A DNA stretch of 45,968 nucleotides from the NCBI GenBank assembly GCA_016927245.1, contig JAFGNA010000009.1, positions 1-45,968 of the forward strand, given 5' to 3'. Positions 33,978-34,997 of this stretch are shown here, in pieces. Numbering within the stretch: position 1 is the first letter of the stretch; each line of letters starts with the position of its first letter. Both the position numbers and the translations under genes were made by a program. A model generated the notes under the pieces. That model made no database searches and had not been told where the DNA came from. It worked only from the letters and a program-made list of their open reading frames with translations. This DNA comes from Candidatus Woesearchaeota archaeon (GTDB lineage: Archaea > Nanobdellota > Nanobdellia > Woesearchaeales > WJKR01).

Positions 33978-34195
33978 AGTCTCAGACCAGTCTCAGAATA
34001 GTCTCAGCCTCAAACATTTTTTAACCCCCTTATTTCTGATAAAACAACATTTTCAGAGGTTTTCCTAAGGTTTTCCGAAATTCTCAGTCTCAGCCTTTTT
34101 CGTGTGGAAATAGTCTCAGCTGAGAATTTTACTTATAAATAGTCTCTGTTTTCTGAGAATTTTCTCAGTTTCTGAGAATTTTCTCACAGGTGAGA
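33978..34195. repeat. Upstream array of TCTCAG/AGTCTCAG elements
   Basis: Ten exact TCTCAG hexamers (either strand) fall in ~200 bp: plus at 33980, 33991, 34002, 34082, 34088, 34114 and 34163; minus (CTGAGA) at 34120, 34153 and 34172. The first three are spaced exactly 11 bp apart. TCTCAGCTGAGA at 34114-34125 is a perfect palindrome. Next to the TATA box the unit TTCTGAGAATTTTCTCA occurs twice (34151-34167 and 34170-34186) with a 19-bp period, followed by TCTCACAGGTGAGA (34182-34195). A second direct repeat GGTTTTCC at 34058 and 34069 again has an 11-bp period. This looks like a multimeric protein-binding site. The rest of the 33830-34230 intergenic segment holds only promoters. Confidence 0.85.
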
Positions 34196-34198
34196 AAG

Positions 34199-34208
34199 GC
34201 ATAAATAG
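34199..34208 (+). promoter_or_regulatory. TATA box for the coiled-coil/winged-helix gene
   Basis: GCATAAATAG centred at 34204 is 26 nt upstream of 34230, so the transcript should begin at ATG 34231. The TCTCAG dyads directly abut its upstream edge, where a bound protein could block or recruit TBP/TFB. Confidence 0.65.
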
Positions 34209-34230
34209 CGCGGCGAGTTTCCTGGAAACC

Positions 34231-34845
34231 ATGTGGCGAGTCGTATGGGTTGACAAGGACAAACTACTTAGGGAGAGCTTCTCTCGCTTGAAATCTGATA
34301 TTGAGGCCATCAAGGAAGAGATCTCTTCCCTGCAAGAGCAACTCGCGGCATGCCAACAAGCGCCGGAAGACATTCCGAAAAACCCCCCTGAAACCCGGAA
34401 TCTTTCCGAGTCTCAGCCGAGTCTCAGCCCTGAGAATCTGAGACTACTTATAAAGGAAGTCATCCAGGAAGAACTTGCAGAAGCCCTGAGACAACAAGAT
34501 ACAAAAGCAGCAGCCGTTTTCTCAGCTGAGACTGATTCTGAGACTGAGCCCGAACCAAAACCCACGAGGAAACGGGCAGAGGACCACTTCAAGGAAGATC
34601 TCATCAAGAATTACGAGCGGAACAAGCGTGCCATCATCAAGCAGCAGATCCTCGGAGAGGCGAGCAAAGGCAGTTTCACCAAGATCGCCTTGCGCGACAT
34701 CGTCGTCAACCAGAAGCAGTACTGCTCAAAAGCGTCATTCTACCGTTACATGGACGAGCTGGAACTGGAGGGCCTCGTCACCTACCAAAGAAAGAAAGGT
34801 AAGGACCTCATCCAGATCAAGCTCCAAGGACCCATAGCTTTATAA
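34231..34845 (+). CDS. Coiled-coil / winged-helix DNA-binding protein candidate
   Basis: 204 aa, not recognised as a named family. Residues ~6-42 are a heptad-like coiled coil (DKLLRESFSRLKSDIEAIKEEISSLQEQL). Residues ~44-125 are a low-complexity, probably flexible linker rich in Pro, Ser, Glu and Gln, with one helical stretch (LLIKEVIQEELAEALRQQ). Residues ~126-200 look like a winged helix: a basic helix (LIKNYERNKRAIIKQQI), FTKIALRDIVV, KASFYRYMDELELEGLVTYQRKKGKDLIQIKL. Its promoter and its linker-coding DNA are packed with AGTCTCAG elements, which suggests it binds them. An autoregulator, a replication initiator or a partition protein are all possible. The stop codon lies inside the TATA box of the 5S rRNA gene. 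Confidence 0.65.
   Translation: MWRVVWVDKDKLLRESFSRLKSDIEAIKEEISSLQEQLAACQQAPEDIPKNPPETRNLSESQPSLSPENLRLLIKEVIQEELAEALRQQDTKAAAVFSAETDSETEPEPKPTRKRAEDHFKEDLIKNYERNKRAIIKQQILGEASKGSFTKIALRDIVVNQKQYCSKASFYRYMDELELEGLVTYQRKKGKDLIQIKLQGPIAL
34409..34545. repeat. Intragenic AGTCTCAG array
   Basis: Within the linker-coding part of the 34231 gene, eight TCTCAG/CTGAGA hexamers occur (plus 34411, 34422, 34520; minus 34430, 34438, 34486, 34526, 34538). Five are full AGTCTCAG octamers. The first two are again 11 bp apart, and TCTCAGCTGAGA recurs at 34520-34531. The octamers are read in different codon phases (E-S-Q versus S-L-S), so the repetition is at DNA level and not in the protein. Confidence 0.85.
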
Positions 34846-34847: not shown

Positions 34848-34868
34848 GAATCTGCGTTCTCCGTCGCT

Positions 34869-34982
34869 GGACGGCCATAGCGGCGTGGTTCCACCCGTTC
34901 CCATTTCGAACACGGATAGTTAAGAACGCCCACGTTCCGGCCGGTACTGCACTTACGTGCGGGAGAACCGGAAAGCTGTCCT
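34869..34982 (+). rRNA. rrf: 5S ribosomal RNA
   Basis: The conserved 5S core is present: GGCCATAGCGGCG, then CCACCCGTTCCCATTTCGAA, CACGGATAGTTAAG and CCGGTACTGCACTTACGTGCGGGAGAACCGG. The ends pair as helix I: GGACGGC (34869-34875) with GCTGTCC (34975-34981). Length is ~113-118 nt depending on exact ends. No 16S or 23S lies nearby, so this is a stand-alone 5S gene, as in several archaea. It has its own TATA box and a T-rich 3' flank. Confidence 0.93.
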
Positions 34983-34997
34983 CCTTTCTTTTTTCTC
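34983..34997 (+). terminator. T-rich terminator after 5S rRNA
   Basis: CTCCTTTCTTTTTTC immediately follows the 3' end of 5S, the usual archaeal oligo-T termination signal. From here to 35298 the sequence is A/T-richer and holds no gene I can support on either strand. Confidence 0.6.

Follow-up and report, generated by a model that had tools for sequence, protein, structure and literature searches.

A chromosomal iteron array and its dedicated winged-helix protein in Woesearchaeales: a possible centromere-like or tethering site

In a 45,968-bp stretch of woesearchaeal DNA (in the following: the window; host genome G000, a Woesearchaeote with 1.11 Mb in 24 contigs), a dense array of short repeats is located upstream of and inside the gene of a coiled-coil winged-helix protein, here termed wH1, which raises the question of the function that such a pair of site and protein may serve. 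A preliminary description of this DNA had regarded it as a dedicated DNA-protein system and had offered three functions: an autoregulator, an iteron-type replication origin with its initiator, or a centromere-like partition site. All 10 AGTCTCAG octamers of the window lie inside positions 33978-34545, whereas shuffles of the whole window contain 2.0 octamers on average and never more than 6; of the 18 TCTCAG/CTGAGA hexamers in the same segment, 10 precede the ATG at 34231 and eight are intragenic (see Table 1). The recount reproduced the numbers given in the preliminary description, and the other structural features reported there were likewise recovered: the 11-bp spacing (33978/33989/34000 and 34409/34420), the palindrome TCTCAGCTGAGA in both parts of the array (at 34114 and 34520), and the different codon phases of the intragenic octamers, which are read in two phases (0 and 1) and encode differing peptides (ESQP, SLSP, LRLL, AETD, SETE). 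The position of the candidate TATA box is consistent with a leaderless wH1 transcript. On the downstream side, a 5S rRNA gene (34867-34984) starts approximately 22 bp past the wH1 stop codon; in a sister species the 5S rRNA (92% identical) is found approximately 1.9 kb downstream of wH1 (L067 12593-12709).

Table 1. Coordinates of the wH1 gene, its predicted domains and the repeat blocks in the window.
Feature	Position	Strand	Details
Distal block	33978..34007	+	3 AGTCTCAG octamers, 11-bp register, one orientation
Proximal block	34080..34185		AGTCTCAG at 34086, 34112; TCTCAG at 34082, 34163; inverted CTGAGA at 34120, 34153, 34172; one-mismatch copies; palindrome TCTCAGCTGAGA 34114-34125
Second TATA-like element	34133-34141		TTATAAATA; sequence reading
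Candidate TATA box	34200..34208	+	CATAAATAG; 23-31 bp before ATG; sequence reading
Gene wH1	34231..34845	+	204-aa coiled-coil winged-helix protein, clade A
Predicted N-terminal helix	34243..34359	+	residues 5-43, probable coiled coil; structure model
Intragenic block 1	34409..34445		AGTCTCAG at 34409, 34420 (11-bp step); CTGAGA 34430; CTGAGACT 34438
Intragenic block 2	34486..34545		CTGAGA at 34486; TCTCAGCTGAGACT 34520-34533; CTGAGACT 34538
Predicted C-terminal winged helix	34570..34818	+	residues 114-196; pLDDT 86-98 by blocks

The wH1 sequence gave no match above cut-off in Pfam, NCBIfam or the PDB sequences. According to the AlphaFold2 model (mean pLDDT 83, based on 18 family members), the N-terminal helix would be followed by a second helix (residues 67-98) and by the winged helix, the recognition-helix motif of which reads YCSKASFYRY; Foldseek searches with this model retrieved generic winged helices only (best E about 2e-3), TubR being a generic weak match at rank 27. 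The placement of the intragenic sites in a flexible linker, as given in the preliminary description, is only partly right, since these sites (codons 60-105) fall on and around the predicted helix 67-98.

The order was surveyed by a profile search in 182 genomes, each at least 90% complete: wH1 is present in 89 of them, usually as a single copy (relatives that bear a name are listed as Candidatus Woesearchaeota, three of these under the label Nanoarchaeota). A phylum-wide sample outside the order yielded weak matches only, mostly coiled-coil or partial; judged by strong matches, the family appears to be restricted to its order. A literature search, covering few subscription journals and no bioRxiv preprints, found the family nowhere described. 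The 104 distinct wH1 genes gathered were split by the tree into clades A, B and C, each forming one group, and the array word follows the clade: GTCTCA in clade A, (G/T)TCCCA in clade B, and AGGTTC or GTCCGGA in clade C, where the words are often intragenic or downstream of wH1. Within the 400 bp upstream of the gene, GTCTCA occurs 188 times in clade A (5.6 expected), TTCCCA 194 times (6.2 expected) and GTCCCA 150 times (3.8 expected) in clade B. A density of four or more sites per 250 bp is seen at 31/42 clade A and 43/45 clade B genes, with permuted control words reaching it in 0.16% (A) and 3.75% (B). Same-strand site spacings peak at 11, 22, 33 and 55 bp, and the spacer between the array blocks has a median of 54.5 bp (58 arrays). 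Some family members are without detectable array. The preliminary description had named, as grounds for its refutation, relatives that keep the protein without repeats; when this was examined, repeats turned out to be present in most of them. The upstream and intragenic parts seen in the window represent one variant of a placement that differs among lineages. Besides the array words, AAAGTGAG recurs near many family loci (L028, L009, L014, L026, L027, L166), with five copies spaced 64-75 bp apart at L028 (upstream -641 to -363).

The arrays are confined to the wH1 locus. The three-in-register pattern KTCYCA-N5-KTCYCA-N5-KTCYCA was found in 26 of the 182 genomes, every match being located at the wH1 locus, i.e. 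in 26/89 wH1-positive versus 0/93 wH1-negative genomes (Fisher p = 9e-10); the reversed control pattern gave one match. Across 40 genomes (20 each from clades A and B), close pairs in 11-bp register likewise concentrate at this locus; in-register pairs elsewhere in the same genomes are at background level, and wH1 was therefore rejected as a global regulator. In the host genome, AGTCTCA occurs 47 times (36 times for the reversed word); as 10 of the 47 sit in the window array, the remainder represents background, and the whole-genome scan revealed no second dense cluster of the word. A single AGTCTCAGGATTCTCAG pair at G000:C4:13389-13405 lies apart from the array and does not follow the 11-bp register. 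Judged from genome content, array and wH1 gene are gained and lost together. That the arrays are chance or functionless low-complexity repeats has practically no probability: apart from the members without detectable array, nothing of weight speaks for it, and it is contradicted by the order-wide recurrence, the 11-bp phase, the clade-matched words and the genome-wide exclusivity, the three-in-register search refuting it. Comparative genomics, i.e. arrays solely beside the wH1 family and a word that shifts with the clade, lends strong support to the earlier view of a dedicated DNA-protein system.

The relation between array and promoter is illuminated by inversions of the gene. The canonical order is array, wH1 and DUF192 in clade A, with both genes on the same strand, and array, wH1 and wH2 (a second coiled-coil winged-helix gene) in clade B. 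At five loci of clade A (L039, L047, L063, L072, L077) and five of clade B (L166, L219, L223, L235, L239), which span several families (f4, f9, f11, f53, f69), wH1 is inverted relative to its neighbour; wH1 has thus been inverted in place between array and neighbour in several lineages, by ordinary rearrangement or a switching inversion. By site counts in the 350 bp flanking wH1 to the left and right, the array is positioned 5' of the gene in 43/43 unflipped and 3' in 10/10 flipped loci (Fisher p = 5e-11, the loci not all being independent), and the promoter side of the flipped genes is site-poor (0-1 sites in the 350 bp 5' of wH1). In G011, 14 sites on both strands are packed into 255 bp between wH1 and a convergent gene approximately 660 bp beyond. 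Since the array keeps its place when wH1 flips, it is an independent cis site and not merely the operator of wH1.

These loci bear directly on the autoregulator reading, according to which wH1 would bind its own promoter array cooperatively and set its own level, with the intragenic and downstream sites as expansions or roadblocks. At most loci the array does lie 5' of wH1, with its end near -48, directly before the expected BRE/TATA, some clade B loci have an additional reverse site near -21, and autorepression of the operon from comparable arrays is described for TubR and ParR (PMC5016525). In the window and at the 43 unflipped loci the array occupies the wH1 promoter; at the 10 flipped loci it does not, having outlived its promoter position. 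Moreover, it would be hard to see the purpose of a regulator with dense sites nowhere but at its own gene. These 10 loci speak against a plain autoregulator, as formerly considered, being the general function, and we regard this reading as unlikely. Still less probable is that the array is an operator for neighbouring genes, such as the clade B methyltransferase or the flippase in the window, with wH1 as a local transcription factor: in clade B the array does remain beside the METTL5-like gene at flipped loci, but the outer neighbour of the array varies between and within clades, and in G011 no ORF of at least 110 aa begins adjacent to the array, the closest called gene being the convergent one.

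A replicator-initiator pair, in which the array would be a secondary origin and wH1 its proximal initiator in the manner of oriC3-WhiP of Sulfolobus, has to be considered because archaeal initiator genes typically adjoin cognate repeats with matched specificity and a winged-helix initiator, WhiP, is known (PMC4010727). The linkage and co-divergence of wH1 and its sites would fit such a pair. However, Orc1/Cdc6 is encoded in 182/182 genomes (in the host on another contig). Among three near-complete chromosomes the GC skew is significant in G011 only (not in G081 and G101); its cumulative minimum extends over approximately 680-850 kb around orc1, and wH1 at 437 kb is without inflection. The AT content of the spacer between the blocks (62.6%) is lower than that of the flanks (68.8%; 58 arrays), and there is no local skew difference across the clade A loci; a small difference (p = 0.02) is seen in the short flanks of clade B, where gene order is conserved. 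With Orc1 elsewhere, no skew inflection at the array and no AT enrichment of the spacer, the former suggestion of an iteron-type origin with its initiator is not supported, and we consider the secondary origin improbable. A replacement of Orc1 by wH1 was rejected on account of the presence of Orc1 in all 182 genomes.

The gene neighbourhood of clade B is conserved in the order uppS, rpoL, methyltransferase, array, wH1, wH2, with wH2 adjoining wH1 in 38/38 loci with enough flank (e.g. L205, L212, L223). The wH2 gene encodes a coiled-coil winged-helix protein (sequence EFEDHLxSINxNTNEI...) for which Pfam contains no family above cut-off; it is nearly universal (162/182 order genomes) and unlinked to wH1 in the host (G000:C5:18330-18785). 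A common origin of wH1 and wH2 was rejected: there is no detectable profile similarity, although one row of the alignment used was a truncated sequence. In 21 clade B loci a gene for a XerA-like tyrosine recombinase is located within approximately 6 kb (e.g. L205, L223, L224, L235), hinting at possible chromosome dimer resolution nearby. No actin-like, tubulin/FtsZ or ParA NTPase recurs as a neighbour within 6 kb of wH1 in 80 loci. Tubulin-family genes are present in every genome (1-4 hits, mostly 2-3; the best hit of the host on another contig, C14), and the wH1-positive genomes without any ParA-like hit include G026, G038, G060, G169, G170 and G172-G174; co-occurrence gave no support for FtsZ or ParA as the motor, the tubulin family being universal and hence uninformative and the ParA-like proteins not tracking wH1.

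The explanation that we favor, at slightly less than even confidence, is a self-contained module of wH1 and a single chromosomal iteron array that would serve as a centromere or tether in the manner of a segrosome, with incidental autoregulation. Reasons for this preference are that only one such site exists, that it is on the chromosome and linked to its own protein, and that its place does not depend on the promoter. Each wH1 winged helix would probably take one iteron per helical turn (11 bp) on one face of the DNA, the array usually consisting of two blocks approximately 55 bp apart; the N-terminal coiled coils would connect protomers and hold blocks or sister copies together, so that a compact nucleoprotein complex would result. 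This complex could constitute the centromere-like or tethering site (segrosome) for chromosome segregation or organisation, and autoregulation of wH1 would follow wherever the array sits at its promoter. The steps differ in strength: on the comparative sequence data wH1 very probably binds the array, its cooperative assembly there is likely, and the role in segregation or tethering is put forward tentatively. In favor of the segrosome-like module count the exclusivity, density and 11-bp steps of the arrays, the clade-matched words, the fixed place of the array at flipped loci, a layout in blocks that resembles tubC and parC (PMC5016525), the second coiled-coil winged-helix protein of clade B (38/38), often accompanied by the XerA-like recombinase, and the combination of N-terminal helices and C-terminal winged helix in the predicted structure. 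Against it count the lack of a linked motor NTPase, the absence of ParA-like proteins from several wH1-positive genomes and the position of wH1 away from orc1 in each of three near-complete chromosomes; furthermore, as about half of the order is without wH1, the array cannot be an indispensable centromere. Among the three functions offered at the outset, a centromere-like partition site would thus be the best remaining fit. A more far-reaching version, which is speculative and rather doubtful, would see here a new archaeal chromosomal centromere or tether made of one iteron array and the dedicated wH1, without linked motor NTPase, that is wired in clade B to wH2 and the XerA-like recombinase as a woesearchaeal locus for segregation and dimer resolution.

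How segregation sites are marked on archaeal chromosomes, and which properties an archaeal centromere has, is posed as an open question (PMC5120986), and DPANN archaea are hard to culture; the wH1-array pair, order-wide, with matched specificities and recovered from sequence alone, provides a concrete, testable candidate, with the gene flips as natural experiments that separate site from promoter. The wH1 set is also suited to the study of protein-DNA specificity, the word changing from GTCTCA via (G/T)TCCCA to GTCCGGA or AGGTTC in step with the divergence of the winged helix.

Compared with known systems, the wH1 locus shares with Orc1-ORB and WhiP-oriC3 a gene beside its cognate repeats and co-diversified specificities (PMC4010727); unlike them, it has no skew signal and no AT-rich unwinding stretch between the blocks, and Orc1 is encoded elsewhere. 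Membership in ParABS, SegAB or AspA-ParBA was rejected given that no ParA is among the recurrent wH1 neighbours, and membership in the type II and type III partition systems because the linked motor is missing, type II failing on the fold as well. ParMRC (type II; ParR-parC) has tandem repeats in two blocks in common with the wH1 array, and the repeat step of parC is about one helical turn; in contrast to wH1, a winged helix without such a motor, ParR is a ribbon-helix-helix protein with a linked actin-like motor. The two parC blocks are arranged around the promoter, tubC consists of direct repeats in 2-3 blocks bound by the winged-helix TubR, and TubY is a coiled-coil HTH protein (PMC5016525). 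TubZRC (type III; TubR-tubC) shares with wH1 the winged-helix binder, the direct-repeat blocks beside the gene and possible autoregulation, whereas wH1 is chromosomal, without linked TubZ, and has a coiled coil of its own. AspA of the archaeal plasmid pNOB8 is, like wH1, an archaeal winged-helix protein with a site by its own gene; this segregation protein, the site of which is upstream of its gene, spreads on DNA (PMC5120986). The AspA site is a 23-bp palindrome, in an operon with ParB and ParA, whereas that of wH1 is an 11-bp direct array.
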